Below are positions 8,126-38,731 of a stretch of 64,000 nucleotides of DNA, piece after piece; within the stretch, counting starts at the first letter, position 1, and each line of letters begins with the position of its first letter. The stretch spans positions 2,046,001-2,110,000 of the forward strand of contig JAFCMP010000112.1 of NCBI GenBank assembly GCA_017506865.1, written 5' to 3'. The notes below the pieces were generated by a model. That model had not been told where the DNA came from. It searched no databases and saw only the letters and a list, made by a program, of their open reading frames with translations. This DNA comes from Tribonema minus (taxonomy: Eukaryota; Sar; Xanthophyceae; Tribonematales; Tribonemataceae). Made by a program: the position numbers and the translations under genes.

Positions 8126-9956
8126 GAGCGGGATCGCTCTGCCGAGCACGGTGCCGCTTGGCAGCTCGAGTGCGACGTCGGCGCGCTGCTGTAGCAGCAC
8201 AGTGCTCGCGGATGTGCCAGTGGTGAGCTCAGCGCTCGCGACCATGTTCGCGTGCTGCGTGTCGACCTCGACGTGCACGAGCTGCTCGACGTTGGCCTGC
8301 ACCGGGGTGATGCCATCTGCTTCCATGATCTGCACCCATGTAGGGACCGCTGCGGGGGCCTCAGTAGGCTCCAAGGAGACAGCAGTGCGTACCACTGCCA
8401 CCCAGCTGCGGTCAGTGTCGTAGGCGTAGCATCGCTTGTTAGGCAGCTGTGTCGATGGCGGCTCGACGGCCTTGCGAGGCGTCGAGCCGAACGCGTATTG
8501 CGTGCCACGTAGCGTAGGGGAGCTCCGAGTCGATGGATAAAGTCGCGGCCAAGTATGAGGTCGTATGGCAGGCGAGGTACCACCAGGGCCATCACAGGCG
8601 CTGACACGCCACCCGGGCCCGCCGCATCGAAGTGTAGCGAGACGATGGTGGTGATGACCTGTGGCTTGGCACCGGTGTCGATGCCACCGACTGCGTGTGG
8701 CGCCTTGAGCTTGCGCACGTCTCGCGAGTCGATGTTGCCACTGGCCACCATGTGATCAAACAGCTGCTGTGATAAGGCCGTGACTGAGGCACAGAGTCCC
8801 ATAGGCTGCGCTTGATGAACCCTGTGCGCGTGGCGCGAGCGCTGCGCAGCGTACACTTAAACAGGGAATGCATGTCGGTGTAGATCGTACCCCGTAGCTT
8901 GCCTGTGACGTGCTGTTGCGGCAGCGGGAGCAGCTCGGCTTCGAGGGCGGCGACCTCGCTGTAGTAGCGTAGCACCGCGTCGTCGTTGGCGCCGTCGGCA
9001 GGCGCGTAGATGGACGCGATGATGCTGTCGACCAACGCGTGCACTTGCCCTGCAGCCACTTCTGCCTCTGCGCGCCCGTAGCCGTCGATGTCGACTTCGG
9101 CGATGTCGACCAGCTCTGCCGGGGGTGCCCAGCTGCGCTGTCGAGGTGGGGTCGTGTCGTCTGCCTGCTTGGCGCGCCGACCCACGAATGCCAAGCTGTC
9201 ATCGCTGTCGACCATGACAGCAAGAATCAGTGTGCAGTGTACTCGATGGGCCTCGCGCCTCAAGCGCTGGGCCTCTGCGAACTCTGCGTCGTCGATTCGT
9301 CGTGCTGTGCCTGGTGGGTCGAGAGCGGGGGTTGGCGTAGTCGAGTCGACTCGTGCTGGCCCTGTCGACTTGCGCAGATAGAGCGGTGTCGTGTTGCGTT
9401 CGCTGCCGTCGGGTAGCCGCGCCGTGTAGTATGGATCCGCACGATCCTCCAGGTGCACCCCGACGACTTCAAGTTGCACTGGCAAACCGACTGCCGCGGC
9501 CATGCGCGCGTACAGGACCTGTTCTCCCTTGGCGAAGGTGAGGTATGGGTGTTGGGTCGCTGGTGGGGTCGGTGCCGCGTCGCTGGTCTGTGCGGCGGCC
9601 CCTTCTACAGCGTTCTCCTCCCCCCCCGAAATGGCAGTATCCCCCGTGCACGTGGGCTCCCATGGCGCCGCGCTCGCGCGTAGTGTGTGGCCCGTGCTGG
9701 TGAGGGTGTCTGCGTCGTGCGGCGCGCTGGCGCCGTCACTGTGGTTTGGTACAGTGGCGCACCGCCGTGTGGCAGTGTTGCTGACTGCGCCGGGGTCAGC
9801 GCCGTTTGCACAAACCGAATGGGGTGGCTGCTGCGGCGGGGCAGCTGCCGGTGGCGCGATGACTGACGTTGGGGGCGGGGCGTCACTCCCGCCCCCCGGA
9901 CCGTCAGTAGCCGATAGTGCTCCCCCCAGGCCTCGGCGGGGCCTGGGGTTGCACCT
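8126..9956 (-). pseudogene. Element A pol N-terminal linker and protease
   Basis: Directly after the gag UAG (9959-9957) the same frame stays open for 152 codons of Pro/Ala-rich linker, into MAAAVGLPVQLEVVGVHLED and on to TIYTDMHSLFKCTLRSARA. The aspartic protease follows: here LWDS then a frameshift, where element C has LWDTGASVTAI. One base is missing near 8795, so the active site is broken. In the other frame the protease continues with ASVTALSQQLFDHMVASG and the flap/core ALVVPRLPYDLILGRDFIHR. The open reading after UAG in an otherwise decayed element supports translation by readthrough when it was active. Confidence 0.78.
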
Positions 9957-9959
9957 CTA
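9924..9959 (-). promoter_or_regulatory. Gag UAG with downstream stem-loop (readthrough signal), element A
   Basis: Gag ends in TAG (9959-9957). Eight nucleotides follow (AGGTGCAA), then a 9-bp perfect stem CCCCAGGCC / GGCCTGGGG with a 7-nt loop CCGCCGA, and pol in the same frame. The loop's GCCGA can pair with TCGGC nine bases after the stem, a possible pseudoknot. Element C has the same spacing, stem length and loop length but two base pairs swapped. This matches the layout of retroviral UAG readthrough signals. The function is inferred. Confidence 0.7.
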
Positions 9960-12067
9960 TGGCAGGGGAGGGGGCGTGTCGACGCCGCGGCTGTACCTCT
10001 TGTAGGACTTCGAGGCCACGCCGGCCTGGACGCGCTTGCGGAGCTCGGCGAACTGCGCCTTGTCGCCAGGCGCGAACTTGGCGACGTATGGGCGGCTGGC
10101 AGCTACGGCAGCCCAGTTGGCCTTGTTGAGCTTCTCCGTGCAGTTCGCGAAGGTGTGAGGGTCCTTGCAGTTGTAGCAGTCGACAGGCGTCGACGCTCCG
10201 TCTCGGCCCCGGACGTTGAGCGCGTTGATCTCGAAGCAGGCCATGATGACCTGTGCGCGCGAGTTCGAGTCCCTCGGCTTAGGTGTCGGCCTGGCGGCGG
10301 GAGCTGTCGAGGGCGTCGCGAGCGGCGTCGAGTCGCGCACCGAGGACTGCAGGCACCGGAAGTTCGGCGGGAAGAGCGGGAAGCGTGCAAGCTTCGGCGG
10401 CGTGGCCTCGTGGCCGCCGCGGAGGTGCTTGCTCACGCGCTCGATGAATTCCGTCGACGTGAACTTCGTGGGGTGCTTCGTGATGTCCTCGAGCCAGCTG
10501 GAGATCGTGTTGTACTGTCGAGAGATGACGCCGACGCCGCCGCGCACCAGCAACTTGTCGTCCTCAGGGTTGAGGGAGTTGCGGATGGCGCACTGCGTGG
10601 TGAAGTACGACACGAAGTTCTGCAGGGACGCGCCGGTAGGCAGGGAAATTTGCAGGGTGTCGGCGGCGAATCGATGATCGGATGCTGCTCTCGGTGTCCT
10701 CGAAGTGCAGGTTGAGCTGCGTGAAGAACCAGATGAACAGCTCGCCATCGCGCATCGTCGTCAACTTCTTGCCCTCGCTGATCCACTGCGTCGCGCGCTG
10801 TCTGACCGTGGCGACCAGGGGGTGGCCGCCGGTGATCTTCGCGCTGACACCGTAGACCATCTGCTCGAACCAGGCGCAGCCGAAATCGTCCTCTCGACGG
10901 ACTCCGAGGTCCTCCCACCGTGGCTTCAGAATCTGGCGCTGGCGCAGTTCGTTGGCGCGCAGGCGAATGCGCGTAGCCAGTACATCGCGCGCCATCCAGA
11001 GCTCGTGGATGTTGCCGATCTCGACGGTGATGGGCTGGAACTCGGCTCTGAGCGTGGGCGATATGCGCGCTATCGCGCAGTTGTCGCTGTCGAAGCCAGA
11101 GTCGCTGTCGACGCGCGCGGGTGCCGTCGAGCCGCTGCCGCTGCCGCCGCCCTGCGGCGCGCCGCCGCCGTTGGGCGGGCCGCTGCCACCATCGCCGCCT
11201 CCGCCACCACTGTCGTCGCCGCCGCCGTCTCCGTCGCCGCCTGGGTTTCCACCCGAGCCGCTGCTGCGGCTAGCGATGAGCTGGTCAGCGTAGGCGCGAA
11301 TGGCGGCGCCAAAGTCGTCTGCGCCGTCGGGGCGCACGTCGGGGTAGGGCACTGCCTCCGTGATGACTGGCGGGGCCTGGAGCATGGTCCGCGCGTGGTG
11401 CGTCGAGCTGTGCTCCCAGGTCTTGATGGTAGCGTGCGGGTCGTCGATCGACGAGTCGCGTTCCGAGGGGTCGGCGAGCATCGTCGAGAGCGAGCGTGGC
11501 TCCAGGAGCTCGGTGTTGGGCTTCCTGTCGCCTGCACGACCACCGGTGGGGATGGTGGACGCGGCTGAGGCATCGTCCGCGGCGCCTGACCCGGTCGCCT
11601 GGTTCGGCGTGCGCATGGCACTCGAGGCGATGCCGACGCGCGTAGCGGCGGCTGCCAACTGACTGGGTGTCGGAGTCGTCGTCACGCGTGCAGCGGCGGC
11701 GCGCCGCCTGCGCGCTGAAGTAGGTGGACCCGTGGTCGTCGCGGCGGCCCTCGGCGACGTCGTCGAGCTCGCGAGGGATGTCGCGCATGCCGCCGACGAG
11801 ATCGGCGCAGCGACGTGAGAGCTCTCCGACGTTCTGTGCCGTGCGCTCCCAGCTCTCGCGCTCCTTCATCACCTGTCCCTCTGCCTGCGTTAGGCGGGCG
11901 CCGAGGTTGTGGTCGGCTTCCTCGAGTGCCGCGAGGTCTGTCGACAGCGAGGCGTAGAGCGAGTCCATCGACTCCTGCCCTGCTGCGATGGCCACCTCCG
12001 CTGCCTGTGCCTGCTTGCGCAGGTCTTCTGTCTCATCCGTGAGACGACCTATCCCGTGCATAACCAC
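9957..12067 (-). pseudogene. Element A gag, middle and C-terminal part
   Basis: A gag polyprotein spread over three frames: a coiled-coil-like segment (MVMHGIGRLTDETEDLRKQ), a low-complexity Gly/Ser region, the capsid-like part (VRREDDFGCAWFEQMVYGVS; element C has NREDDFGCEWLAPFTMGL) and a nucleocapsid knuckle CYNCKDPHTFANC. The knuckle is CX2CX3HX4C, one residue shorter than the usual CX2CX4HX4C; element C has the same spacing. Frameshifts lie near 11,650 and 10,700. Gag would form the particle and bind the RNA. Confidence 0.78.
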
Positions 12068-12545: not shown

Positions 12546-12949
12546 AAGATCAGACCGGTTATGGTAAATCAGACCGAGACAGTTTGTCCTAAGTAAGGTC
12601 TTGAAGTTGGCCGAGTTAGTTGAGGTTGCTTGCACCAACGTTGCAGGACTCGGTCTGGCGCACCTGATGCTTGAACAGGAACTTCAATTGAGTCAGAAGT
12701 TCAACCTCAACTTGCAGTTTGAGTTCAAATATTTAACTTCAAGTGTAGCCCAACTTCAACTGATTTTGGGCCTTCAAATGCAAGTTGCGGTTCAACTTCT
12801 GACTCAATTGAAGTTTCTGTTCAGCCATCGGGTGCGCCAGACCGAGTCCTACCAAATTGGTACAAGCAACCTCAACTAACTCGGCCAACTTCAAGACCTT
12901 ACTTAGGACAAACTGTCTCGGTCTGATTTACCATAACCGGTCTGATCTT
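12546..12949. mobile_element. 404-bp palindromic foldback element 2
   Basis: A near-perfect inverted repeat centred near 12748. The left end AAGATCAGACCGGTTATGG matches the complement of CCATAACCGGTCTGATCTT at the right end. Arms continue through GACAGTTTGTCCTAAGTAAG, GGTCTTGAAGTTGGCC, GAGTTAGTTGAGGTTGCTTG and ACTTCAATTGAGTCAGAAG. The core is full of TTCAA/TTGAA words, like palindrome 1, but the end sequences differ. It interrupts element A's gag between the start (13226) and the coiled-coil segment. No clear target duplication is visible. Confidence 0.78.
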
Positions 12950-14117: not shown

Positions 14118-14576
14118 AGTCTGCCAATGGCGCGCCCGGTTGTGATGGCCATGTTTCGCAACACACAGCGCCGCTGGCTGCGTGCAGCTGTGGGTTCAAC
14201 AGCATTCTGCATCATCGATACCGATGGCAAGCACGAGGTGCTTGCCAAGGTGATGGCGCTCGCTGCACGACGATACGGGGCAGCAGCTGCTGCTGGCGTA
14301 GTCATCGCAGACATTGATGAGGCAGCTGCGCCTGATGCGGTCTTGCCTGACAACACTCATGTGATCCACGCCAATATATTTGCTCTTTTCAAGACGTTTT
14401 CGCAAGAAATGAAAGCGATGCCAACGCAGCAAGCATTTGAGTTGGCCACGGATCTGTGCATAATCGGCCGCAATAGAATACAAGGCAGGGTGATCGAAGT
14501 GATCGACCCCCTGTGGCCCAGAAGCGGTCCCGGAACGCCACGGGACAGCTGTGATGGCACAGGCTGGGCTAGCTAA
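14034..14576 (+). CDS. Possible hypothetical ORF cut by the TRIM-like element
   Basis: The plus frame includes VMAMFRNTQRRWLRAAVG, AFCIIDTDGKHEVLAKVMAL and ATDLCIIGRNRIQGRVIEVI. It reads like folded-protein sequence but matches no family I know. The frame runs into the LTR at 14551, so the last residues are LTR-derived. The retro-insertion may have truncated a host exon. A nearby minus-strand frame competes, so confidence is low. Confidence 0.28.
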   Translation, partial: CARASNVMYDWARHDLLQQAAAAGPGRHSLPMARPVVMAMFRNTQRRWLRAAVGSTAFCIIDTDGKHEVLAKVMALAARRYGAAAAAGVVIADIDEAAAPDAVLPDNTHVIHANIFALFKTFSQEMKAMPTQQAFELATDLCIIGRNRIQGRVIEVIDPLWPRSGPGTPRDSCDGTGWAS

Positions 14577-14970
14577 GCAGCACACTGTCTACTAGATGTT
14601 GCCCAGGCACAGAACAACCAAGGGGGCCATCACCTAACCATGGATATCAAGCAGATGCACACACAAGCAACTCCTCCAGACAATTCAACAGCAAGGCATT
14701 CAGTGAGCAGGCAAACAACACACACACCCATGGGTAACTAAGCCACAGACATGACATTTACCTTGGTGCCCAAAGCCAAGCTGGAGAGAGAGTGAAGGCA
14801 CAATCAGATGCCCAAACTCAAACAGGGGGTTTTCCCCCTGTGTCACCTAGTTGCACCATATGCTACCATTGAACCGTGGGGTCCCTCAGAGGCTGACCAT
14901 TCCACCTGTGGTGCACGTGACTGAAGCAACAGATCGGTCAGCGACCCCCATAACTTGACGTGCCATAACA
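14551..14970. repeat. Left LTR of the TRIM-like element
   Basis: 420 bp, TGTGATGG...CCATAACA. It contains a perfect 7-bp hairpin CAGGGGG-TTTT-CCCCCTG, which is where the extra repeat of the right LTR begins. Confidence 0.85.
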
Positions 14971-15747
14971 GTTCCCCCTCCTTAGACAATGCTTGGTCCC
15001 CAAGCATGCCCACTGGAGCAGGTGCAGTGACCGCGTGGTCGTTTAAACTGCAGGGTGAACACGGAGACACAAACCATGCGCTAACGCCGGCGCACAATGC
15101 TGAGGTAACCGCTACAAGCTAGGCCTCGCGCGTCGCGCGTCAGCTATGAACACTAGAGCTTTGCGCGCTGCGCGTCGCTCACGTACAAAAATCCCCCATG
15201 TGCCCCAAACCGGACGGCTCGTGGAGCCTTTGATTACTAGGCCCTGAGCGGCATGCTGTACTGTCGCGCCAGCGTTGGGCTGGCAAACGTAGCGCCATTG
15301 ACGATTGCTCTTGGACCGCTTCACCATGGTGCACCTGACATAAGAGAGGAGGGCTGCGCAAGGCGCAGGACGTGTGACGTGGGCGCATACATGCTGCCGC
15401 TTGTCGTGAATGATCGGATGTAGAGGGGAGGGCTGCGCAAGGCGCAGTATGAGTGGTTGTGCACAGGGCGCAATGCGATGCGCAGGGCGCAATGCGATGC
15501 GCAGGGCGCAATATGACTTCAAGCTCAACTGTAACATGTGGCCGTGCATGCGCAAGGCGCAATGGAGAGCCGTTGTGGGAGCTGTGTGGTCGAAAATGTG
15601 CATGCGCAAGGCGCAATGGAGAGCTCGAGTGGCTTTTTAGCTTAACCGAAAAATTGTGCACCACGGGGTAGAGGTAGAGGAAATTTAAGCTGATCATTTT
15701 CCCTCAGACTCCAGTAAAACTGGTATATTCCCTCAGACTCCTCCAAC

Positions 15748-16302
15748 TGTGATGGCACAGGCTGGGCTAGCTAAGCAGCACACTGTCTACTAGATGTTGC
15801 CCAGGCACAGAACAACCAAGGGGGCCATCACCTAACCATGGATATCAAGCAGATGCACACACAAGCAACTCCTCCAGACAATTCAACAGCAAGGCATTCA
15901 GTGAGCAGGCAAACAACACACACACCCATGGGTAACTAAGCCACAGACATGACATTTACCTTGGTGCCCAAAGCCAAGCTGGAGAGAGAGTGAAGGCACA
16001 ATCAGATGCCCAAACTCAAACAGGGGGTTTTCCCCCTGTGTCACCTAGTTGCACCATATGCTACCATTGAACCGTGGGGTCCCTCAGAGGCTGACCATTC
16101 CACCTGTGGTGCACGTGACTGAAGCAACAGATCGGTCAGCGACCCCCATAACTTGACGTGTTTTTCCCCCTGTGTCACCTAGTTGCACCATATGCTACCA
16201 TTGAACCGTGGGGTCCCTCAGAGGCTGACCATTCCACCTGTGGTGCACGTGACTGAAGCAACAGATCGGTCAGCGACCCCCATAACTTGACGTGCCATAA
16301 CA
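15748..16302. repeat. Right LTR with internal 3' duplication
   Basis: It matches the left LTR up to TTGACGTG (16160). The last ~140 bp (from the TTTT loop of the CAGGGGG hairpin to the end) are then repeated as 16161-16302. The duplication breakpoint falls at the hairpin loop. Confidence 0.85.
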
Positions 16303-21380: not shown

Positions 21381-21382
21381 CG

Positions 21383-23230
21383 TTGCCACCGTTCAGCTAT
21401 GCCCATTTTTTTTCTATTTCACGGTCAAGTATCTGTCTCTACCCGCTGCACGCTGCTGCAGACATGCCTCCAGAGCCTCTGAACAAGGATCCGTACAAGT
21501 GCAGCGCCTACCGCCTGCAATACACCAGCGCCCTGCGACCGGCAGAGGCACAGGAGTTGGTGCTGCAAGCCGCGGCTCGAGTGCAGTCCGCAAGGGCTGT
21601 GGCGGAAGCGCCTGGTTATGTTGCCATCAATATGCCTAGCCGCAGCTGTAGAGCCCATTATCACGAAGTAGCTGCCAAGCTGAGGGCGCAGTGCGGCGAG
21701 ACCGTCAGCCTTGTCCAGCCAGAGCAAAACAACAGGATCATCGGGCAGGAGGAGATTCGGCGAATTTTCGCTGCAGCACCAGCAGCAACCGCTGCGCCCA
21801 TGGTGTCGCTGCTACCGCTGTCACGGGCCCCTGGGGTCGCTGATGGCGCTGTGGTGCCTGTGTCCATGAGAGGTGCAACCAGCATGTCGCTGGATCCAGA
21901 CCCGTTCCAGGCCTTCAATAACCAACGCCTGCACGACTTAATCGACAACAACCACCGGCCGCAGAAGCAGTGGAACGGGTATATCATAAAGATCTACTTC
22001 ACGCCCTTACTGTTCCAGCTGCGGCTGCCCGACAACCAATTTCAGCGCGTCTCCTACTTAAGGACGACGAGCGGTGAGCTAGAGTTCACCACAGCTAAGA
22101 ACCTCTCAGACCACGCCACCAGTTGTGAGGGTTGGCATGTTGCGGAGTCCCACAGCGCAAGCAATCCAATGTGGAAAGAATTTCCGCATGCCGACAAGTA
22201 TAACATCTGCACACGTATGCGTGAGGCGGCACTGCTGTGTAGTGTTGTAGGCGCTGCGGCGGTCGTGATGTCCCCTCGCAGAGACTCGGTGCTGGCTCCG
22301 GACTTCTACTTGTTTGTGCACCTGAAAATCGGATGCAAGCCAACACGCGACGGCATCATTTCATTCCTCGCGACTATGAACAAGGTATCCGGGCGATTTC
22401 GAGTACGGCTATTCCATACGCATTTGCCGTCCGCCCGGTGTGGGTACCGATACAGCGTGCCGAAGGACAGCATGGGCGACCTGTGTGACGAGGGGTGGCT
22501 CATGGTGACGGATCAGGGGGGTGTGCGCACACTATGGCCTGCAGCATCCGATGTTGAGGTGCCACAGGCGGTCGCTGCGAGGGGTTTCGGCTTGGACAAC
22601 GCTGCCATGCTCGGCTGCATCACGGAGGCAGCTACACGTAATGTGGCGCACGCGATCAAGTACGGCAGCGAACAGCAAGTGTGCGACACAATCGTTGCAT
22701 TCGCTCCCGGCGCCCCGCAACAGGCGCTGGCGGTGCTGAAGCGTCTCTTTGTGGAGCACGGCGCGGACGTGCTGGAGAAGGTGCTCGGCAGGTATGCGTG
22801 TGATGCAGCGAAGGAGGAGGCGGAGCGGCTGCGCGCCGGAATCGCAGCTGCGAAGCGGGAGGCGAAGGAGCTGCAGATTCAGCACAGCATGCTGATTTCG
22901 GATTTGGGGAAACTGCGGGCGAGGCAGCATCAGGAGTGCCACACACTCAGAGCGGGACTGCGGCCGCGGCAACAGGAGGTCGACATATTGCGAGCAATGC
23001 GGAGTGCGTTGAGCGAAAAGAGGTATGGCTTGTGGACAGAGCTGACAACGCAGTGTAAGGCTCGCGGCGTCTTTACAGGCCAGTACACTGCAGACAGCGA
23101 TGCAATTTTCGAACAGGCTCAACACAATGACGATCACCGCAGCCAACTGGACAATGTCTTGAAGGAACAACAGCGGCTGAGGGAGCAATATGATGCAGCG
23201 CTAGAAAGGTGCGATATAATGCAGGACTAG
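21383..23230 (+). CDS. Uncharacterised 600-residue protein, copy 1
   Basis: Intact intronless frame of 615 codons; a second start at 21464 (MPPEPLNKDPYKCSAYRLQY) is equally possible, giving ~588 residues. I do not recognise the family. The N-terminal part carries DPYKCSAYRLQY and INMPSRSCRAH; the middle carries SLDPDPFQAFNNQRLHDLI, REAALLCSVVGAAAVVMS and GCKPTRDGIISF. From about residue 465 a Glu/Ala/Arg/Leu-rich coiled coil runs to the end. Copy 2 (32126-33961) is roughly 65-70 percent identical across the full length, and a third copy survives as a 3' fragment at 29106-29228. Conservation of the protein in two full copies suggests selection or recent duplication. A LINE has landed in this copy's 3' UTR. 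It could be a host multigene family or an ORF of an unknown mobile element. Confidence 0.7.
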   Translation: MPPFSYAHFFSISRSSICLYPLHAAADMPPEPLNKDPYKCSAYRLQYTSALRPAEAQELVLQAAARVQSARAVAEAPGYVAINMPSRSCRAHYHEVAAKLRAQCGETVSLVQPEQNNRIIGQEEIRRIFAAAPAATAAPMVSLLPLSRAPGVADGAVVPVSMRGATSMSLDPDPFQAFNNQRLHDLIDNNHRPQKQWNGYIIKIYFTPLLFQLRLPDNQFQRVSYLRTTSGELEFTTAKNLSDHATSCEGWHVAESHSASNPMWKEFPHADKYNICTRMREAALLCSVVGAAAVVMSPRRDSVLAPDFYLFVHLKIGCKPTRDGIISFLATMNKVSGRFRVRLFHTHLPSARCGYRYSVPKDSMGDLCDEGWLMVTDQGGVRTLWPAASDVEVPQAVAARGFGLDNAAMLGCITEAATRNVAHAIKYGSEQQVCDTIVAFAPGAPQQALAVLKRLFVEHGADVLEKVLGRYACDAAKEEAERLRAGIAAAKREAKELQIQHSMLISDLGKLRARQHQECHTLRAGLRPRQQEVDILRAMRSALSEKRYGLWTELTTQCKARGVFTGQYTADSDAIFEQAQHNDDHRSQLDNVLKEQQRLREQYDAALERCDIMQD

Positions 23231-24264: not shown

Positions 24265-25000
24265 GTCCGTTGTGGATCTCCGCCTCCACTTTGTCTGCCC
24301 AAATTTTGGCTATTTCCCCCACCAGCAGCCCTTGGGAGGGTAGCTGCGCTGCTGCATCCTCTCCTCTGCTGCACTGCAAGTGGAGTGCTGCGACGTCCAC
24401 CGCCTCCACAACTCCAGCTGCTGGCTGCGGTAAGGGCAGCGCTGCTGCCGCTAGTGCTGGCCCAGCCGCTGCCTCCTGCTCCTGTGCTGCTGGTGCAATC
24501 CCCTCAGCCCCCCCCTCAGCCGCTGCTGCTGCTGCAGCCATCTCCCCGCCGTCGCCCTCCTGCCCGCCTGCTCCTGCTGCCTCCCCATCTGCCGCCATTG
24601 CATCCTCATCCTCCTCCGCTATGCCCCCCCCCTCTCCCTCCCCGCCTCCTGCCTCTGCCAGCGCTAGCTGCGCCGCTTGCGGCAGCAGTGCTGCCGGCAG
24701 CAAAGCATCAAGCTTGTCACCTGCCATCTCACGCAGCGCTGTCACTGCAGCAATCAGCGTCTGCACGAGAGGCAGTGAGGCAACTTCTGCCGCTGCTTCT
24801 CCCTCCAGCAACGCAGGCACCTCCTGGATGCCATCCTCACCATCCTCCTCCAGGGCTGATAGCACAGCAACAGCAGCAGCAGCCGCTGCGGGGGGGTATG
24901 GCTGCCCCCCCCGGCCCCCCGGCCTCAGCCGCTGCTGCTGCTGCTGCTGCTGGTGCTGCTGCTGCTGCACCACCCCCTCCCCCCGCTGTCTCCTCTCCAT
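24182..25000 (-). CDS. LINE low-complexity linker between RT and nuclease
   Basis: Minus frame with a Gln run and a long Ala/Glu-rich stretch, then ordered sequence near its end (LVGEIAKIWADKVEAEIHNG, RVQELARLLATSQTLHRYGI) that should flow into the nuclease frame after a shift near 24200. The opposite strand has a 456-codon Pro/Ser-rich frame that I judge to be its shadow. Confidence 0.5.
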   Translation of the reverse strand: MERRQRGEGVVQQQQHQQQQQQQRLRPGGRGGQPYPPAAAAAAVAVLSALEEDGEDGIQEVPALLEGEAAAEVASLPLVQTLIAAVTALREMAGDKLDALLPAALLPQAAQLALAEAGGGEGEGGGIAEEDEDAMAADGEAAGAGGQEGDGGEMAAAAAAAEGGAEGIAPAAQEQEAAAGPALAAAALPLPQPAAGVVEAVDVAALHLQCSRGEDAAAQLPSQGLLVGEIAKIWADKVEAEIHNGLEGDCRVQELARLLATSQTLHRYGILK

Positions 25001-27275
25001 CCTCCTCCTGGTCCGCCGGCAGTATTAGTATTGCCGCTGCTGCTGCAGCATCCGCCGCTGCCCCACCGGCGCCCCCTCCCACTCCCGCTCCATCAGCGGC
25101 TGCTGCTGCTGCTGCTGCTGGCTGCCCTCCGGCCGCCTGCGCATCGGCATTATGGGTGATGAGAACGCCAGCCCAGGCCGATAGCGCAGACGGTAGGGCC
25201 TCCAGGGTGCTCGCTAGGTATGCTGCGTCAGCAATGTCGCAGGCACTGCTGATGCCTAAGCCACCGTGCCGCACCGGGAGCCGTGCCAGTTTCAGCATTG
25301 CGCCTTGCAGCACATATGGCGCGCCAGCTTCCACAAAGCTTTGCCAAGACTGCTCTGCTGGATGGAGGCCCATAGAGCGCTCCAACACCCACTGCGTCAT
25401 CTCATCCCACTGCTGCGCTGCTTCCGCTGTTTGCGGAGCAGGATTAGTTCGCAGTATGTGCGTCATGCGGGGCACAACGCAGTGCCTCAGCAGGCGGAAC
25501 ATTGCTCTTGGCAATGTAAGGCGCGCACACCGCTGTGCGAACCGTCCTCCCTGTCCCGCTGTCCCCGCCTCCCTTTGAAGCCACTCCTGCACGAAACCTG
25601 CATGCCCCACCGGCACTCCGAGCATCACTGCACCCCTGGTATGATCCTCCTCCGCCCCCCCCACCAGTTGCACCCCCAGCTGTTGCAGCAGCTGTCGCTC
25701 CTGTTCCGTGACTGAGTGCCCCCTACCCGGTAGCGCCCGAGTCTTACCGAAGTTGAGCTCCAGCCCCTGTTCTGCAAAGTGCGCTTTGAGCTGCAGCACT
25801 GCCTGTATGTCTCCTGCCGTCAGCGTGTCCGCTCCAGTGCGCACATTCGCGTCGTCTATGTACGCGCCTATGCGTCGCCGCGAACGTTGCTCCACGGCGT
25901 CCCTGTTGAAGCGTTTGAGGCAGTCAGCAATCCCCCCACAGAACAGTACCGGGCCTAGAGGGCCCCCCTGCTTGACCCCTCGCTGGGATGCGATGGTCCT
26001 CACAGATCCGTCCGCATGTTGAAAGAGCAGTTGGGGACGGTTGCGCATGTACGTCGCCAGAAAGTAGTTGAGCAAATCAGGTAGCTGCGCCGCCACCCAC
26101 TTTGCAGCCGCTGTCACCTTTAGCGCATTGAAGGCGTTGCGCAGGTCAACGTTGAACTGCCAGTGGCCGAGCTCGTACGCCAGCTTGCCCGCCAGCGCCG
26201 CCTTCTCGGCGCCAGCAGACACCGCTACCCCGTACTGCCCGTCCGGCTGCAGCAGCTCTGCTAGGAAGCCCTTGCGTTCCCCCACGTACACCGACGTGCA
26301 CACTGGCAGCCGCTGCAGCACCTCTCCACATGCTATCGGCCGCAGCTTGGGGGTGCCGTCCGCCTGGCGTTCCGTCAGCGGTGTGAGGCGCGCTGCTGCA
26401 TGTAGCTGCCAGAAATCATCTGGTATGCGCGCAGCATCACGCATCACCAGCTCTATCCAGCGTACGAGAGTGAGACTCATCTGCTGTTTGCCCCATGTCG
26501 TCCGCAGAGCGTCCTGTAGATGGCTGTACCGAAGCCCAGACGGTCCGGCCCTGCGGTAGGGGCTGGCGCGCTGAATGCATTTCGCCACTGTGTCCCCGCA
26601 TATGCCGTCCTCACGCAGGAGCTGTAGCTCAGCAGGCATCGGTGCCGCAGTCGCCGCCACCTGCGCCGCCATGTTTGCCAGCTCCGCAGCAGCCTCTCCG
26701 GGCGCCGCTGCCGGATGCTTGGCCTCCATGGCCGCAAAACATTCGTCGTTTGCCTCCGCCACTGCTGCTGGCTGTAGGCTGCGCGCCGCTTGCTTCAGGC
26801 CCCCCCTGGTGCCCATGCATTGCACCACATATTCGTTGATCACTGCCTCCACCTGCTCCCGTGTACGGCGCCGCCTGCGCGCGCGTGCGTGTGCCAGCAG
26901 GGCTGGCATAACCCGCGTAAGATCGCCCCTGGCCACCATGCTGATCCGGTCCGCACGTTTGATGCCTGGCGCGCCATCGGTTGATGTGATGAGCGCTGGC
27001 ATGAGGTGCTGCAGGACAGTGGCGCGTTGCAGCCTCACAGCGCGTCCGAGAGAGTTGGGCTCACGCACAGCGTCCACGAACAGGTTGTGCGCATGCGCCA
27101 GCAGCTGCGCTGCTGTATTCGCTAGCGCGGGCCCCACAAACCTGCGCTTCTGCGGCTTAGCGAGGTGCTTAGTGGTGGCAAACTGTAGCTGCTTGAGCTC
27201 CTCCATATTGATTTTGTCCAGTACTGCTGCAACAGCGGGTGTGTCCACCGACCACTTTAGTACGACCTGCGGCAC
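24837..27275 (-). CDS. LINE reverse transcriptase
   Basis: 812 codons. RT motifs in order: RAGPSGLRYSHLQDALRTTW (~245), GTPKLRPIACGEVLQRL (~313), FNVDLRNAFNALKV (motif A, ~375), SQRGVKQGGPLGPVLF (motif B, ~430), RIGAYIDDANVRTG (catalytic YIDD, ~475) and LELNFGKTRAL. A C-terminal GGLGISSACDIADAAYLAST follows, a block typical of this RT class. It copies the LINE RNA at a nicked target. The last ~60 residues are Ala/Cys runs read from CTG repeats, where the frame probably slipped. The upstream frame is open beyond the first Met, so the true N-terminus may continue from the RGG region. Confidence 0.8.
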   Translation of the reverse strand: MPQVVLKWSVDTPAVAAVLDKINMEELKQLQFATTKHLAKPQKRRFVGPALANTAAQLLAHAHNLFVDAVREPNSLGRAVRLQRATVLQHLMPALITSTDGAPGIKRADRISMVARGDLTRVMPALLAHARARRRRRTREQVEAVINEYVVQCMGTRGGLKQAARSLQPAAVAEANDECFAAMEAKHPAAAPGEAAAELANMAAQVAATAAPMPAELQLLREDGICGDTVAKCIQRASPYRRAGPSGLRYSHLQDALRTTWGKQQMSLTLVRWIELVMRDAARIPDDFWQLHAAARLTPLTERQADGTPKLRPIACGEVLQRLPVCTSVYVGERKGFLAELLQPDGQYGVAVSAGAEKAALAGKLAYELGHWQFNVDLRNAFNALKVTAAAKWVAAQLPDLLNYFLATYMRNRPQLLFQHADGSVRTIASQRGVKQGGPLGPVLFCGGIADCLKRFNRDAVEQRSRRRIGAYIDDANVRTGADTLTAGDIQAVLQLKAHFAEQGLELNFGKTRALPGRGHSVTEQERQLLQQLGVQLVGGAEEDHTRGAVMLGVPVGHAGFVQEWLQREAGTAGQGGRFAQRCARLTLPRAMFRLLRHCVVPRMTHILRTNPAPQTAEAAQQWDEMTQWVLERSMGLHPAEQSWQSFVEAGAPYVLQGAMLKLARLPVRHGGLGISSACDIADAAYLASTLEALPSALSAWAGVLITHNADAQAAGGQPAAAAAAAADGAGVGGGAGGAAADAAAAAAILILPADQEEDGEETAGGGGGAAAAAPAAAAAAAAEAGGPGGAAIPPRSGCCCCCCAISPGGGW

Positions 27276-27743
27276 CCACGCAATGCCTCCTGTCCCCCCT
27301 GCTCCACCAGCCCCCCCCCCCTTCCCCCTGCCCCGCCATTTCCGCCACCTGCACCGCCACCGCCACCACCACCTGCACCGCCACCACCACCGCCACCACC
27401 ACCGCCACCACCTCCTGCCCCGCCCCCGCCTCGCCCCCCCCCCCTCCCCCCAATCCTCCCCCTGCCGCCAGGGCCCCCTCCTCCCGGGGCCCCACCTCCA
27501 CCAGCACCAGCTGCTGCAGTATTGACAGCGCCTGCTGCTCCACGGCCAGTCCTGCCGCGTCCACGACCGCCATCGCGCCCCCCTCTGCCAGCGCCTCCGT
27601 TCCGTCCCCCGCCACCTCTGCCGCTGCGCGCACCTCCGCCTCCCCCTCCACTGTTTGCCGGCTGCTGTTGCTGCGCCTTACGGTAAGGATTGGCAGTCGC
27701 GGTCCTTGGGCTTGCAGCAGCAGCTGCAGGTACGGCAGGTCTG
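27257..27743 (-). CDS. LINE Gly/Arg-rich (RGG-like) segment
   Basis: In the frame one shift from the finger ORF, the minus strand reads NDRPAVPAAAAASP and then a long run of Gly, Arg and Asn with many RGG/GRG triplets, suited to RNA binding. It connects the zinc-finger ORF to the RT. Being almost pure GGN repeats, the reading frame cannot be fixed with confidence. Confidence 0.4.
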
Positions 27744-32125: not shown

Positions 32126-33961
32126 TTACAGGCTGTTCCGCAAGATGTTGCAGGTGTATAGCGCGTCATCGTGCTGCTCCCTCAGATACTGCTTTTGCTT
32201 CAAGAGTTTTCGCAATTGGCCGCGGTGGTTGTCGTTGTGTTGAGCTTGTTGGGAATTTGCATTGGTCTCTGAGGTGTACTGGCCTATGAAAATGCCACGA
32301 GCCTTACACTGCGTTTTCAGCTCTGCCCACAAGTTATACCTCTCCTCGCTTAAGTCACTGCATGTCGCTCGCAGCATTGTCAACTCCTGTTGCTGCGGCT
32401 GAAGTTCGGCGCTGAGCATATTATTCTCCTGTTGGTGTCTTGCCCGCAATGTTGCCAGATCTGAAATGTGCCTGCTGTGCTCAAGCTGCAGCTCTTCCAC
32501 CTCTTGTTTCGCCGCTGCTACTTCAGCACGCAGGCGGTCCGCATCCTCTTTTGCTGCATCGTGCGCATACTTGCCCAGCACCTTCTCCAGCACCTCTGCG
32601 CCGTGCGCCGTGTACAGACGTTGCAACACCGCCAGCGCCTGTTGCGAGGTGCCGGGGCCGAGCGTAACGACGATTTCGCTCACCTGCTGTTCGCTGCAGT
32701 GCTTGATCGTGTGCGCTACATGACGTGTAGCTGCCTCCCTGATGCAGCACAGCATGGCAGCATTGTCCACTCCGAAGCCCCCTGCAGCGATCGCCTCTGG
32801 CACCTCAAAGTCGGACGCTGCCGGCCATGGCGTGCGCACGCCCCCACACCCCGTCACCAGCGTCCATCTGCTGTTGTGCAGGTTGCCCATGCTGTCCTTC
32901 GGCAGGCTGCTCCGGTACCCGGTTCGAGCAAACGGCAGGGAGGAATGAAAGCGCTTGACATAAAATTGCCAACTCATCTTTTTCATCGAGTCGATGAATG
33001 AAACGATGCCATCGCGTGTCGGCTTGCATCCCTTCCTGAGTTGCGCGAACAGGTAGAACGACGGAGCCAGCACTTCGCGAGTGGACATGACGACCGCCGC
33101 AGCCCCTACGACAGTGCATAGTAGTGCTGCCTCGCGGATGCGTGCACAGATCTTCTGCTTGTCGGCATGCGGAAACTCGCGCCATATTGGGTTGTTGTGG
33201 TCGTCAGCGTCTGCGATGTGCCAGCCCTCCTGCAGCAGGCCCTCGCGGCCCCTACCGTGGTTGTTCGTAATGAACTCCGTGTTACCATCGGCGGATGCCT
33301 TGAAGTAGAGGGCCTCGTGTACTTGATTGTCGGGCAGCCGCACTAAGAACTGCAGAGGTCGGTAGTCGATCCTGATGATGTAACCGGCCCACTGCTCCTG
33401 CAGCCGCTGATTGTTCTCCATGAACTGGTGCAGGCGCTGATTATTGAAGGCGTGAAATACGTCTGGATCCAGCGAAATGCTAGGAACACGTTCCGCAGCG
33501 ACAGGCACCATAGCGCGCTCAGCGACTCCGGGCGCCCGTGACAGCGGTAGCAGCGACACCATTGGCGCAGCGGTGGCAGGTGCTGGACCGAAGAGTCGCC
33601 GGATCTTATCCTGGCCAATGATCATGCTGTTGCGCTCTGGCTGGACAACGCGGACGGTATCGCCGCTCTGCGCAGTCAGATTGGCAGCTATATCTCGACA
33701 GTGGGCCCTGCAGCTTCGGCTAGGCATGTTGATGACCACATATCCAGGCGCTTCCGCCACAGCCTTGGTGGACTGCACTCGAGCCGCGGCTCGCAGCACC
33801 AATTCCTGTGCCTCTGCCGGTGGCAGGGCGCTGATGTATTGCAGGCGGTAGGCGCTGCACTTATACGGATCCTTGGTTGATGGCATATCTGCAGCGTGCA
33901 GCAACGGGTAGTGACAGATGCTTGACCTTGAATCAGAAAAAAAATGGGCATAGCTGTGCAT
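32126..33961 (-). CDS. Uncharacterised 600-residue protein, copy 2
   Basis: Intact intronless frame of 611 codons; the alternative start at 33886 (MPSTKDPYKCSAYRLQY) mirrors the inner start of copy 1. It is collinear with copy 1 throughout: VINMPSRSCRAH, MVSLLPLSRAPGV, SLDPDVFHAFNNQRLHQFM, ALLCTVVGAAAVVMS, GCKPTRDGIVSF, then a C-terminal coiled coil (AEVAAAKQEVEELQLEHSRH). No known domain is recognised. The 5' leader (CAGCTATGCCCATTTTTTTT) and 3' UTR are conserved with copy 1, so whole transcription units were duplicated, now in inverted orientation 9 kb apart. Confidence 0.7.
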   Translation of the reverse strand: MHSYAHFFSDSRSSICHYPLLHAADMPSTKDPYKCSAYRLQYISALPPAEAQELVLRAAARVQSTKAVAEAPGYVVINMPSRSCRAHCRDIAANLTAQSGDTVRVVQPERNSMIIGQDKIRRLFGPAPATAAPMVSLLPLSRAPGVAERAMVPVAAERVPSISLDPDVFHAFNNQRLHQFMENNQRLQEQWAGYIIRIDYRPLQFLVRLPDNQVHEALYFKASADGNTEFITNNHGRGREGLLQEGWHIADADDHNNPIWREFPHADKQKICARIREAALLCTVVGAAAVVMSTREVLAPSFYLFAQLRKGCKPTRDGIVSFIDSMKKMSWQFYVKRFHSSLPFARTGYRSSLPKDSMGNLHNSRWTLVTGCGGVRTPWPAASDFEVPEAIAAGGFGVDNAAMLCCIREAATRHVAHTIKHCSEQQVSEIVVTLGPGTSQQALAVLQRLYTAHGAEVLEKVLGKYAHDAAKEDADRLRAEVAAAKQEVEELQLEHSRHISDLATLRARHQQENNMLSAELQPQQQELTMLRATCSDLSEERYNLWAELKTQCKARGIFIGQYTSETNANSQQAQHNDNHRGQLRKLLKQKQYLREQHDDALYTCNILRNSL

Positions 33962-34690: not shown

Positions 34691-34837
34691 CGAGCTCACG
34701 GCTTCCACAGCACAAATGTGTGTAGGCATACGAGTGTCCCTGGTTCATATCTGGCGAAGGGCAGCTCTGCGGTGCATCAGCATCGTTCAACGAGGCCATG
34801 TGATATTGTTGAAGTACGATCTTTCTGTAACTGCTCT

Positions 34838-35115
34838 AGTGCTGCTGCTACTGCTGCTGCACAGAAGCTGCTGCTGCTGCTGCTGCTGCACAGAAGATGC
34901 TGCTGCTGCTGGACAGAAACTGCTGCTGCTGCTACAGCTGATAATGCTCCTCCAGCTTGCCTGCTGCTACTGCGGGGCTGCTGGACTGCGTTGCTTCTGG
35001 TTGCATCGCTGCTACTGCTGCACTGCGCCGACCTTTACATGCATCGACCTTAGGTTGAGCAGTCCTTCTCAATGTGGAGCAGCAGCAGCAGCTCCAGGTC
35101 TTAGGACTTGCTGCG
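34838..35115 (+). repeat. CTG microsatellite cluster
   Basis: Interrupted (CTG)n runs with ACAGAAG spacers (GCTGCTGCACAGAAGCTGCT), then CAG runs at 35083-35125. No coding evidence. Confidence 0.8.
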
Positions 35116-35302
35116 GCTACAGCAGCAGCTGCTGCTGCCTTGCTGCGTGATGATGTCCCTGCACAGGATCGTCAGCAACATGCATCTTGACTGGGGGAGC
35201 AGACTGATGAAGTTTGGAAGCAGCAGCAGCAGAATTTACACCATGCGGAGCAAAACAGCTGCACCTGAACGTCATTACCGCTTCCAGGCAATGTGTGTTC
35301 GT

Positions 35303-35510
35303 TGTGGTGACACTGGATGTTGGAGTGTCACCTGTAACTGTTACGGTTGGCAGTTACGAGTTGTTCGTTGTTGTTTGTTTGGCTCAGACAAGAGCAGCAG
35401 CCCCAGAATACACATAGCACAGTTCGGTCAGCTGTGTTGTGTGTGGGTGTCTTCTCTGCATTGTTCCCTGCACTTGCTGAAGTGTAGTACGGAGACTAGT
35501 TGTTTCATCA
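35303..35510 (+). repeat. Left LTR of element C
   Basis: Starts TGTGGTGACACTGG and ends TTGTTTCATCA. Its first 70 bases form two hairpins: GGTGACACT/AGTGTCACC and GTAACTG/CAGTTAC. It is followed by GTTGGTTCC, the first part of the PBS, and then by the rearrangement joint. Confidence 0.92.
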
Positions 35511-35519
35511 GTTGGTTCC

Positions 35520-35868
35520 GGTAAGAGCTTGGACGCGTAGGTTGTCGTTTGTCGGGTCGATCATTGCGGACAGGTTGCACTTGGACTGCATGTAGTTGAG
35601 CGCATCACGGAATGGCGTGTCTTTGCGCACCGCCACGCGTAACAGGTCCGCCGCAATGCGAGAAGGCTGACCTTGCTGGAAGTGCTCCCCCAGTTGTTCC
35701 ATGAGCCACTTGTAGAGCTGCAGGTCTCTCGTGCCAGCCGCCACTCCCCGTGCGCCCTCCGCGATCCATTGTTCTGCCTGCTCGCGCACCGTTGCTGCTG
35801 CCGGATGCGAGCCCCGTAAGGCGACACACAGGCCCATGGTAAAGGGGGCCAGCCATTCGCAACCAAAG
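35520..35868 (-). pseudogene. Duplicated gag fragment at the rearrangement joint
   Basis: 348 bp identical by eye to 39414-39761 (capsid-like part, MGLCVALRGSHPAAATVREQ to DNLRVQALTG). It is joined on the left to the first bases after the LTR and on the right to methyltransferase sequence at the shared word CCAAAG. The methyltransferase frame runs into it out of frame. Confidence 0.88.
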
Positions 35869-35967
35869 CCGTCTCCCCCTCCCCTGCTGTTGAGAACTTC
35901 TGGCAGGGGGGGCCCCCTAATAAGACCTCGGCGCGCAGCCGCCTCATATCTGCAATGAGCTCTGCGC
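35863..35967 (-). repeat. 105-bp inverted repeat arm (methyltransferase motif IV), left
   Basis: Exact reverse complement of 42054-42158. On minus it encodes DMRRLRAEVLLGGPPCQKFS, with the catalytic PCQ. Both halves of the split gene carry this segment, so each ends inside the active site. Confidence 0.9.
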
Positions 35968-38728
35968 GCGTAGATGGGTCCGCCATATCCCGGCGGCGGA
36001 CGTCCGTATGAGGGTGATTCTCCTTGTATATCCGAAGAGCGCGCTCCTCAGAGTCAACGGCGAGCTTGACGTTCAAGTAGGGCTGGAGCCCCTCCGCCAG
36101 GCCGCCAGCGCCGCAGTAAACGTCTACCGCCGTGGCGCGCGCGTTCGGGTCTCGTTCCAGCACGCTGTCAGTTACCTCACGTAGCGGCCGCGCCTTGCCC
36201 AGCACGGTGCCACGTGGCAGCGAGACCGGCTCCCCCCGCTGCTCGAGCTTGACCGGCTTGGCATGCAGCCCAACCGTCAGCTCGCGTGTGTACATGTGAT
36301 TCAGGAATTCCTCCGCGATGGTCACATGTGCTGTGTCCAGTTCTCCCGGGCAGGAGACGACAGGTGTGATCCCATCAGACTCCATCACTTGAACCCAAAG
36401 TGTCTGCACACCATGTTCAAGGCCATCTAGCTCTGTTGCGACGCGCACTACTGCCACCCAATCGCGTTCCTCCCCGTAGGTGTACACTGGGACTTTGGGA
36501 CTGAAGCTGGGGGTGGGCTCTGCTGATGGCTCGCCATACACGTATGTGGGCCCACTGCCACTATGACTTGCATGCCACTTATGTCTGCTGATGTGGTCAC
36601 GCCCAATGATGATGTCGTGTGGCAGATGTGGTACAATGAGCGCCAGCTGAGTGAAAGCTACCCCGTCTGGGCCATCAGCCTCAAAGTGAAGCGCTACAGC
36701 GTGGGTGACGCGCTGTGGCTTCTTGGATGTGTCAACACCGGCTACTGCCCTAGGTTTGCTGAGTTGGTGGACATCCCGTTGCTCTATGGCTCCTGATGCA
36801 ACTAATTTGCGGAATGCTTGCTCCCTGATGGCAGTAACTGAGGCCCCAGTGTCCCAGAGAATGTCCCTAGAAAACTTGCAACGTAGTGCGCGCGCAGAGC
36901 GTAAACGGGCCTTGAACTTAGAGTGCACGTCAGTATAGAGTTTGCCCCTTACGTTGGGCATGCTTGCCTGCTGTGGTACAGGTAGTGCTGCGGCCTCCAT
37001 CGCTGCCACCTCAGCGTAGTATGCCAAGACCGCCCCGTCATCAGCTCCGTCCTCCGGCGCCCACATGGCCAGTATCTCGAAGCAGCGCTCAACAGTGCGC
37101 GCCTCCTCTGCCATGGCTATCTCCACCGCTGTCAGGCCCGCCTCGCCGTCCAGCACCTCGTCGATGGCGCCAAGGGTCTCTGCCGCCGGCGCCCAGCTGC
37201 GTATCCGCCGCTGCGGCTCAGGTTGAGCCGTGCCATCCACCTTGAAAGCATGAAGCCGCTGCAGAGCTATCAGCCTGCGCTGCTGCTCCGCTGCAAAGGC
37301 GGCGTCGTCGGCGGCGTGCGCCGCCGCAGCAGCGTCGCCGCCGCTGAGTGGTGCTGAAGGCGGTCTTGAGGAATGTGTGGGAGTCGCAGTTGATGTCGGA
37401 GTTGAAGTTGGTGTAGAAGATGGAGTTGTCGTGTGTCGTGTCGCAGCAGCTGCTGCAGTCGCCAAATGTGGCGCCGTTGCCGGCGCAGAAGTTGCAGTTG
37501 TAGCCGTGCTGCAGCTACTCACTGCTGGTGCTGGTGGTATCCTCACCCCCCCTTGCGATGACGCGTGCGCGCCAACTCCATGACCCGCCGCAGCATGCAC
37601 GGGTCTCCATGCTGGAGTACCAAGCTCCTGAATAGGGCTGAGGGGTGCTACCGGCTGTCGAGCGCGCTGCTCCTGCTGCAGGCGCTCCGCGCGCGCGCGC
37701 CGTAGCCGCGCGCCGCTGGACTTACGTCGCCCCAAAATAGGCCATCGCTGTACAGTCGTAGTTGTTGTCGCCGGCGACTGTGCAGCACCATCAGGCGCCG
37801 CCAACGCCGCCGGTCTCCATCGCGCCGTTGCTGCTTGAGCAGCGTTCGTGGGCGCCTCCTCAGCAGCAGCGCTCAACGGAAGCTGCGCCGTCGTAACGCT
37901 CTGCTGCGCAGCTGCTGCGTGGGCGGCGCTCGCCGCTGCTGCAGAAGCTGCATGCACTGCAGACAGCGCAGCGCCCAAAGGTGCCGCTGCTGCCGCAGCG
38001 TTCCGTGGTGCTGCTGGTGCGAGCGCGGCGCGTCGCGGCGCCGCCACACCAGAAGCACGCGCCGCGACTGGCGCGGCGCCCGAGGGCGCTGCTGCCATCG
38101 CAACGCCCCGCTGCGCGTCATCCTCTTGGGCGGCGCCCGACGGCGCCACTGAAGAAGCTGCGCGCGCCGCTTGCGCGACGTCCATAGACACCGCTGCTGC
38201 CGCAGCCCTCCGTGGTGCTGTTGGTGCGTGCGCGGCGCGCGCAGGCACCGCCAAACCAGCAGCACGCGCCGCGACCGGCGCGGTGCCCGAGGGCGCCGCT
38301 GCCATCGCAGCGCTTCGTTGCGCGTCAGCCGTTTGGGCGGCGCTCACCGGCACCCTCGCAGAAGCCGCGCGTGCTGCAGCTTGCGCGACGTCAGTAGGCG
38401 CCGCTGCTGCCACAGCACTCCGTAGTGCCTCTGGTGCGTGCGCGGCGCGCCGCGGCGCCGCCACACCAGAAGTACGCGCTGCGACTGGCGCGGCGCCCGA
38501 GGGCGCCGCTGCCATCGCAGCGCTCCGCTGCGCGTCAGCTGCTTGGGCGGCGCTCGCCGTCGCCCCCGCAGACGTCGCGCGCACTGCAGCTTGCGCGACG
38601 CCCGCAGGCGCCGCTGCTGCCGCAGCGTCTCTGACTGTCGTCGGGGGGAGGGCGTCACTCCCCCCCCCAGTGACACTAGAGGCTCCAAGTGCTCCCCCCC
38701 AGCCAGGAGTGGGCTGGGGGTCGCACCC
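35869..38728 (-). CDS. Element C pol N-part: Ala-rich repeats, protease, methyltransferase N-half
   Basis: It follows gag's UAG in the same frame with no intervening stop. First comes an Ala-rich domain of about four ~56-residue repeats (unit contains ADAQRSAAMAAAPSGAAPVA), then a Pro/Thr region, then the protease: SRDILWDTGASVTAIREQAF with the DTG active site, and LALIVPHLPHDIIIGRDHIS. The methyltransferase start follows: VDVYCGAGGLAEGLQPYLNV (motif I), VLLGGPPCQKFSTAGEGET (motif IV), where the rearrangement cuts it. Unlike element A, the protease is intact. A transcript from the left LTR would run antisense to this segment. Confidence 0.85.
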
Positions 38729-38731
38729 CTA
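38696..38731 (-). promoter_or_regulatory. Gag UAG with downstream stem-loop (readthrough signal), element C
   Basis: TAG at 38731-38729, an 8-nt spacer GGGTGCGA, stem CCCCCAGCC / GGCTGGGGG (9 bp) and loop CACTCCT (7 nt). The pol frame continues unchanged. CTCC of the loop can pair with GGAG nine bases after the stem. Relative to element A, stem positions 5 and 6 are C-G and A-U instead of A-U and G-C, so pairing is kept by compensatory change. Readthrough is inferred from geometry and conservation. Confidence 0.75.

Follow-up and report, generated by a model that had tools for sequence, protein, structure and literature searches.

We analysed a stretch of 64,000 nucleotides of contig JAFCMP010000112.1 of the alga Tribonema minus (hereafter, the window), in which two retrotransposon-like elements, A and C, each carry a gag frame and a pol frame separated by a UAG codon. 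As judged by their domains, A and C are Ty3/Gypsy-like elements with a chromodomain, and the pol of C also carries a cytosine methyltransferase. The domain order of Ty3/Gypsy chromoviruses (reverse transcriptase (RT), RNase H, integrase, and then the chromodomain) is present at 42053-48124 of the window, and the C-5 cytosine methyltransferase family PF00145 is found inside Gypsy pol frames, in the window within 35561-46912, with 132 matches in the genome, fragments included. The upstream frames of A and C, which we call gag, matched no family in a Pfam search. Element C has TCGT on both outer flanks of its long terminal repeats (LTRs), i.e. a target-site duplication, and the LTRs are in direct orientation, but in this copy the 5' half of the element, from gag to the methyltransferase, has been inverted with respect to the remainder of pol. 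We note that 105 bp of 35863-35967 recur inverted at 42054-42158 and that a 361-bp repeat occupies 35518-35877 and 39411-39771. Element A has decayed and is the only one of its kind in the genome, other matches to its gag query having at most 47% identity. A genome search also revealed in it a stretch that matches the methyltransferase with 62% identity, and self-comparison of the window revealed no LTRs of A. Two imperfect palindromes of ~400 bp, at 2238-2657 and 12546-12949, flank element A and do not match each other.

The features of the two junctions are given in Table 1. The original prediction, made from the letters of the window, had described a UAG, an 8-nt spacer, and a 9-bp stem with a 7-nt loop at both junctions, and this layout proved correct to the base on the minus strand. 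As had also been claimed, pairs 5 and 6 of the stem are C-G and A-U in C and A-U and G-C in A, the loop can pair with bases starting 9 nt past the stem (GCCGA with UCGGC in A and CUCC with GGAG in C), and pol stays open in the gag frame for more than 100 codons past the UAG (454 aa in A and 1055 aa in C). Two features came in addition to these: GGUGC within the spacer can pair with GCACU just past the stem (the outer helix), and a second stem-loop lies ~65-90 nt after the UAG. The loop of the latter is AGUGACGC in most of the aligned junctions described below and AUUGACGC or AUCGACGC in those of the UGCG family; the second stem-loop may belong to the signal or form a separate element. We consider it likely, on the sequence evidence presented here, that the junction carries a signal for programmed readthrough of its stop codon, of the UAG type and resembling that of murine leukaemia virus.

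Table 1. Features of elements A and C, with positions in the window
Element	Feature	Position	Strand	Remarks
A	End of gag frame	9957..10760	minus	267 aa, stop to stop; assignment from position and from a zinc-knuckle-like motif noted by eye
A	UAG between gag and pol frames	9957..9959	minus	
A	Spacer	9949..9956	minus	8 nt, AGGUGCAA
A	Outer helix, 5' arm	9951-9955	minus	GGUGC, within the spacer
A	Stem 1	9940-9948 with 9924-9932 (span 9924..9948)	minus	9 bp
A	Stem-1 loop	9933-9939	minus	CCGCCGA, 7 nt
A	Outer helix, 3' arm	9916..9920	minus	GCACU, within the pseudoknot linker
A	Candidate pseudoknot stem 2, downstream strand	9910..9914	minus	UCGGC, partner of loop GCCGA (9933-9937); linker 9 nt
A	Second stem-loop	9872..9895	minus	Arms GGGGCGGG/CCCGCCCC, loop AGUGACGC
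A	Pol frame after UAG	8592..9956	minus	Open for 454 aa
A	Further pol remains, RT	5984-7642		Weak match
A	Further pol remains, chromodomain	2773-4158		
C	Gag frame	38732..42016	minus	1095 aa, stop to stop; assignment from position and from a zinc-knuckle-like motif noted by eye
C	UAG between gag and pol frames	38729..38731	minus	
C	Spacer	38721..38728	minus	8 nt, GGGUGCGA
C	Outer helix, 5' arm	38723-38727	minus	GGUGC, within the spacer
C	Stem 1	38712-38720 with 38696-38704 (span 38696..38720)	minus	
C	Stem-1 loop	38705-38711	minus	CACUCCU, 7 nt
C	Outer helix, 3' arm	38688..38692	minus	GCACU
C	Candidate pseudoknot stem 2, downstream strand	38683..38686	minus	GGAG, partner of loop CUCC (38706-38709); linker 9 nt
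C	Second stem-loop	38644..38667	minus	Arms GGGGGGGG/CCUCCCCC, loop AGUGACGC
C	Pol frame after UAG	35561..38728	minus	Protease DTG motif by eye; start of cytosine methyltransferase by Pfam
C	Remaining pol	42053..48124	plus	Methyltransferase, RT, RNase H, integrase
C	Chromodomain	46913-48124	plus	In the next frame
C	Left LTR	35303..35510	plus	208 bp, TG...CA
C	Right LTR	48307..48514	plus	99.5% identical to left LTR

We searched the genome (158.2 Mb in 554 contigs) for further junctions. An exact 20-place motif representing the start of the signal occurred at 68 places, compared with none for the reversed pattern, and a structural pattern with up to 3 mismatches occurred at 105 places, compared with 28 for the reversed control. 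Among the 100 listed of these 105 places, 87 were taken as real junctions, with no mismatch in 67, one in 13, two in 5, and three in 2. The original prediction had named relatives with a sense codon or a frameshift at this place as evidence that would speak against it; UAG is kept in 86 of the 87 pattern-matched junctions, and one (C479:201961) has UCG. The base after the codon is G in 85 junctions, among them the UCG site, and A in the remaining two, element A and C544:1671175. Because the pattern itself names TAG, a strongly changed site could escape it; searches with gag proteins, which are blind to the codon, gave 60 loci (many of which overlap pattern sites) and no other codon. Within the window, the junctions of A and C are the sole exact matches to a 15-place pattern, and this pattern, when loosened to 3 mismatches, showed no excess (14 matches compared with 10.6 in shuffles). 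We read 72 of the 87 junctions past 35 letters and left the chimeric L020 out of all alignments; the remaining 71 gave 41 distinct rows of 112 nt, in families that we name after letters of the stem or after a contig (C, A, ACG, GCG, UGCG, C9/C12, C26, and C51, plus C145). Two loci with gag-like matches, L095 and L096, showed no junction within the 291 and 281 nt read, and the junctions beside the gag matches C41:11160, C195:39139, C521:724209, and C212:610488 lay outside the set that was read. We note that the last of these, an ACG-like copy (C212:610488-610661), has a gag frame of 1118 aa; the junction pattern has no listed match there, and the methyltransferase lies ~650 nt nearer than in its kin, perhaps because of a deletion at the junction.

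One distant relative, on contig C75, was chosen for its methyltransferase match (32% identity, in a frame of 2690 aa) and not for any signal, and it is the only distant methyltransferase relative in which the junction was read. The C75 gag frame of 938 aa ends in UAG at C75:8745. An 8-nt spacer, GGGGGCGA, leads to a stem that has one mismatch and a loop of 9 nt, and after a linker of 9 nt, GGGAG lies opposite CUCCC of the loop. No stop follows in this frame for at least 117 codons past the UAG. In C75 (locus L112, C75:8100-9100), the methyltransferase is in a different, later-starting frame, which would place a frameshift, programmed or caused by decay, between the two. When a covariance model was built without C75 from 24 of the 41 rows, its sole full-length match over five loci (12.9 kb) fell on the C75 UAG, with a score of 12.2 bits (E 0.06), near the 12.0 bits of a partial chance match. 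Further, two relatives of C75 have a match to a related pattern immediately downstream of gag; as this pattern gave 8 matches compared with 6 in the control, the position and not the count is informative.

The first 120 nt past the UAG form an island in which nucleotide identity peaks. Between ACG and GCG, identity in successive 60-nt bins past the UAG is 95% and 86% and then 70% and 55%; between A and ACG, it is 68% and 83% in the first two bins and 36-60% in the other bins from -480 on. The proportion of differing synonymous sites (pS) is 0.056 in codons 1-40 past the UAG, 0.19 in codons 41-250, and 0.58 in gag for ACG and ACG2, and 0.085, 0.56, and 0.33, respectively, for ACG and GCG2. The ratio of nonsynonymous to synonymous change (omega) in codons 1-40 is 1.29 and 1.13 in these two comparisons, which looks like constraint at the nucleotide level and not like a protein signature; the peptide past the UAG (GCDPxP...) is also alike across families. 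Two ACG-type copies (L012 and L013) form a mosaic, with gag 41-73% identical per 60-nt bin and the first 180 nt past the stop over 90% identical, and the likeness of ACG and ACG2 past the stop next to their unlikeness in gag suggests that ACG-type elements recombined at the junction. A conserved RNA of this kind could mainly serve packaging, dimerisation, or transport, with splicing or RNA processing bypassing the stop, and its ~115 nt, second stem-loop included, are more than stem and pseudoknot alone would occupy; we regard this as improbable, as the stretch starts at the UAG, and the 8-nt spacer and the UAG-G context suit a readthrough signal.

The frames on either side of the stop also speak for readthrough. 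Both share one reading frame around a single UAG in no fewer than four copies of the C type, where they measure 1095 and 2936 aa, and in two of the ACG type, where they measure 1090 and 2758 aa. These frames contain gag and the methyltransferase, whose match begins at codon 921 (C-type) or 908 (ACG-type) past the UAG; the start of the second frame at the UAG was read over the first 499-505 codons in the loci copies and inferred otherwise. Indels after the stop are multiples of three in ACG-ACG2 and C-C6, and GCG-GCG2 has gaps of 31 and 49 nt, which indicates frame decay there. It is conceivable that the structure instead drives separate initiation of pol, by reinitiation, by entry resembling that at an internal ribosome entry site, or from an internal promoter, and a precedent of sorts is Tca2, whose gag-pol junction, according to the excerpted text of PMC2194720, contained a weak promoter and was not read through in yeast. 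If anything, we give this a little less credence than a packaging role: gag and pol share a frame in C, ACG, GCG, and A, the conserved island begins immediately past the UAG, and, considering AUG only, there is no in-frame AUG for 72-283 codons past the UAG in eight representatives (the first in-frame Met codon being 283 and 267 in two ACG copies, 72, 144, and 142 in three C variants, 73 in two GCG copies, and 152 in A).

Across the 41 rows, 98.1% of the cells at the 26 named pairs can pair, compared with 46-64% with slid partners, and for stem 1, which we find well supported, the figure is 98.6%. Stem-1 columns 17/34 hold four pair types (G-U, C-G, A-U, and G-C), columns 18/33 hold three (C-G, A-U, and G-C), and columns 16/35 hold C-G, U-G, or U-A; in the second stem-loop, there are three pair types at 82/97 and four at 85/94. 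RNAalifold, which cannot call pseudoknots, by itself finds the outer helix, stem 1, and most of the second stem-loop, with its base in a shifted register. In a test that used a tree from unpaired columns and a null in which substitutions were moved among branches, 12 same-branch double changes keep pairing, compared with a null mean of 1.94 and a maximum of 7 (0 of 5000 reached the observed number). Because the structure was picked after the sequences had been seen, the pairing statistics favour it. A candidate pairing of GCACU with a downstream AGUGU was rejected, having yielded no significant pair in the all-pairs test described below. Could the stop be an inactivating mutation spread by one master copy, and the hairpins chance products of GC-rich DNA? 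C-type copies are mostly 96-99% identical across the gag query and hence recent, and shuffled sequences fold nearly as well, but UAG and stem are common to families with diverged gag (pS up to 0.65) and pairing-preserving changes, and C75 shares the UAG, so we find this very improbable. That UAG is an ordinary Gln codon in this alga, with gag-pol one open reading frame (ORF), is barely credible: UAG and UAA encode Gln in some ulvophycean green algae (PMC2984419, in excerpt) and the host looks photosynthetic (92 exon-level matches to the light-harvesting family PF00504), but the C element of the window has UAG at 0 of 3669 codons outside the junction, compared with 180 CAG/CAA.

Each of the nine representatives shows a pairing of the loop with 4-5 bases that begin 8-9 nt past stem 1; among the 41 rows, columns 25/50 of this stem 2 hold C-G or U-A. 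When the downstream letters were shuffled, the P values for stem 2 were 0.062 (C), 0.015 (A), 0.015 (ACG/GCG), 0.074 (UGCG), and 0.51 (C75) with G-U allowed and 0.030, 0.004, 0.41, 0.51, and 0.33, respectively, with Watson-Crick pairs only; some loops pair equally well with the downstream strand of another family. In the outer helix, C-G is replaced by U-A at columns 9/42 in C9, C12, and both C26 copies (one event), and eight rows of the UGCG family have G-U in place of G-C. Of the minimum-energy folds of 8 representatives, 6 contain the full outer helix, that of C has 2 of its pairs, and that of GCG (L064) has none. The calculated gain from the outer helix, -6.6 to -9.6 kcal/mol, is near the stem-2 stacking of -6.3 to -11.3 kcal/mol (loop costs excluded). 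Because the outer helix leaves a linker of ~1 nt across a stem of 14 pairs, the geometry suggests that outer helix and pseudoknot probably exclude each other. It is also doubtful that the spacer is free of pairing.

Elements of this type need less Pol than Gag. This need, together with a UAG kept in diverged families, one frame across the stop, the lack of an early AUG, and a structured island at the stop, leads us to infer programmed readthrough. Most ribosomes would stop at the UAG and release Gag, and a minority would decode it with a near-cognate tRNA and continue in the same frame, producing a Gag-Pol protein with protease, cytosine methyltransferase, RT, RNase H, integrase, and chromodomain; the size of this minority would set a low Pol:Gag ratio. 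The stimulator would be the RNA past the stop, i.e. the 8-nt spacer, the 9-bp stem, and the loop pairing ~9 nt past the stem to give an H-type pseudoknot, which would sit at the mRNA entry with the UAG in the A site and the second stem-loop following. Pairing of spacer and linker would extend the stem to within a few nt of the UAG and would have to melt when the ribosome arrives.

Several results weigh against readthrough driven by such a structure. First, one junction carries UCG. Second, the 12 double changes are confined to four branches (A, the ACG/GCG side, C51, and the C9/C26 group), and the two in A at 27/48 and 25/50 concern a stem-2 register that A seems not to use, leaving 10; further, of 57 changes at named pairs, 36 retain a standard pair and 21 break it, and three copies on contig C6 break one stem pair. 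Third, an R-scape-like all-pairs covariation test found no pair significant (the best, with E 1.4, lies outside the structure, and the named pairs have E of 13 or more), which we put down to the few independent families, and the z-scores of the minimum free energies are modest (-0.9 to -2.5). Fourth, of the six comparisons in which omega could be computed for codons 1-40, three gave 1.13-1.29 and three gave 0.40-0.56, so that protein-level selection there is not clear. Fifth, the statistics support stem 2 of the pseudoknot moderately, and, in the excerpted Tca2 report, there was no readthrough in Saccharomyces cerevisiae and the authors report no evidence for the pseudoknot (PMC2194720). Covariation in a wider alignment, which the original prediction had put forward as a check, was thus seen as pairing kept through double changes and not as significance in the all-pairs test. 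Its broader proposal, that this Gypsy lineage uses the murine leukaemia device, is on the whole supported: it gains from the UAG in 86 of 87 junctions, the kept pairing, and the layout of C75 and loses from the all-pairs result, the possibly paired spacer, and the moderate case for the pseudoknot.

The signal might, in addition, be a ribosome-triggered RNA switch, a possibility that we advance tentatively and hold to be rather unlikely. At rest, pairing of GGUGC with GCACU would extend the hairpin almost to the UAG and block the pseudoknot, as the 9-nt linker holds GCACU; with a ribosome at the UAG, the outer helix would melt and free the linker, and the pseudoknot would form at the mRNA entry as the stop is read. 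In favour of the switch are the C-G to U-A and G-C to G-U changes in the outer helix, the presence of the full helix in most of the minimum-energy folds, and the similar calculated strengths of outer helix and stem 2. Counting against the switch are the single double-change event in the outer helix and the few outer pairs kept in the folds of C (2) and GCG (L064; none) and in C75, which retains only 2.

Gammaretroviruses are the best-known case of in-frame readthrough aided by a structured stimulator, and the signal of murine leukaemia virus (MuLV) is characterised by 5-10% readthrough, with insertion of Gln. We note that the algal pol differs from that of gammaretroviruses in being Gypsy-like with a chromodomain (as judged by domains). 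Going by the excerpt of PMC4178896, the algal junctions and MuLV have in common the UAG, the shared frame, and the 8-nt spacer. The H-type pseudoknot of MuLV, reported to be the minor partner (6%) of an equilibrium with an inactive fold, has a candidate counterpart here. They differ in the linker (loop 3; 8-9 nt here and 18 nt in MuLV) and in loop 1 (~2 nt here and 1 nt in MuLV), in the spacer, which here can pair with the linker and in one MuLV model is unstructured, in the second stem-loop found here, and in the unrelated host and element family; the likeness of the two signals need not reflect shared descent. Readthrough of a gag stop is already known or proposed in Gypsy elements, namely in Tj1 and its kin, at UGA-CU; what the algal sequences point to instead is UAG with a structured stimulator. 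The fission yeast Ty3/Gypsy elements Tj1, Tcry1, and Tosmo1-3 likewise have an in-frame gag stop (PMC4600332 and PMC10085805, in excerpt), and Tj1 has a pol without AUG and a gag stop that is essential for transposition (PMC4600332). Their stop is UGA in a conserved GAA-UGA-CU, unlike the UAG-G (84 of 87), UAG-A (2), and UCG-G (1) found here, and the excerpts describe no structured RNA, the word pseudoknot being absent from the main text of PMC10085805. Tca2 of Candida albicans is similar in its in-frame gag stop, 8-nt spacer (purine-rich in Tca2), and predicted pseudoknot, and differs in that its stop is UGA (PMC2194720, in excerpt). As in KnitGypsy-Dnmt3 of Klebsormidium nitens, a cytosine methyltransferase lies in a Gypsy pol ORF, a likeness at the PF00145 level only; the repeats there are described as DIRS-like, unlike the direct LTRs of element C, and the word readthrough is absent from the main text of that paper (PMC5890265, in excerpt). 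Among the listed matches to open-licence papers, by title or start of abstract, none reported gag-pol readthrough in an algal Gypsy element. If our interpretation is true, the UAG-spacer-pseudoknot solution arose in an algal retrotransposon lineage, probably independently, and it would show how an element with a DNA methyltransferase holds that enzyme at a low level compared with Gag. Several families being present in a single genome, there is a natural mutant series for the parts that matter, and the two competing pairings make it directly testable how a fold can be confined in its action to the time when a ribosome is at the stop.

Searches beyond the genome added no further case. The signal had 0 matches in viral_contigs, and its two matches in genome_contigs, in contigs of bacterial metagenome-assembled genomes, look like chance; the RT-integrase region had no relative in viral_contigs, and two 401-base stretches gave nothing near the gathering score in Rfam. 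Among the 120 listed of 289 protein relatives, none was a fused gag-pol protein (no matches to the gag or post-stop queries), and pol-only predictions among the relatives are unable to show the junction. Elsewhere in the window, repeats of ~130-417 bp, 99.8-100% identical, occupy 14546-16302. An inverted pair of open frames of 622 and 637 aa, 76% identical in DNA, lies at 21394-23203 and 32159-33956 and had no Pfam match over the cut-off, and a further reverse-transcriptase ORF (RVT_1, E 2.1e-9) is located at 24837-27677.

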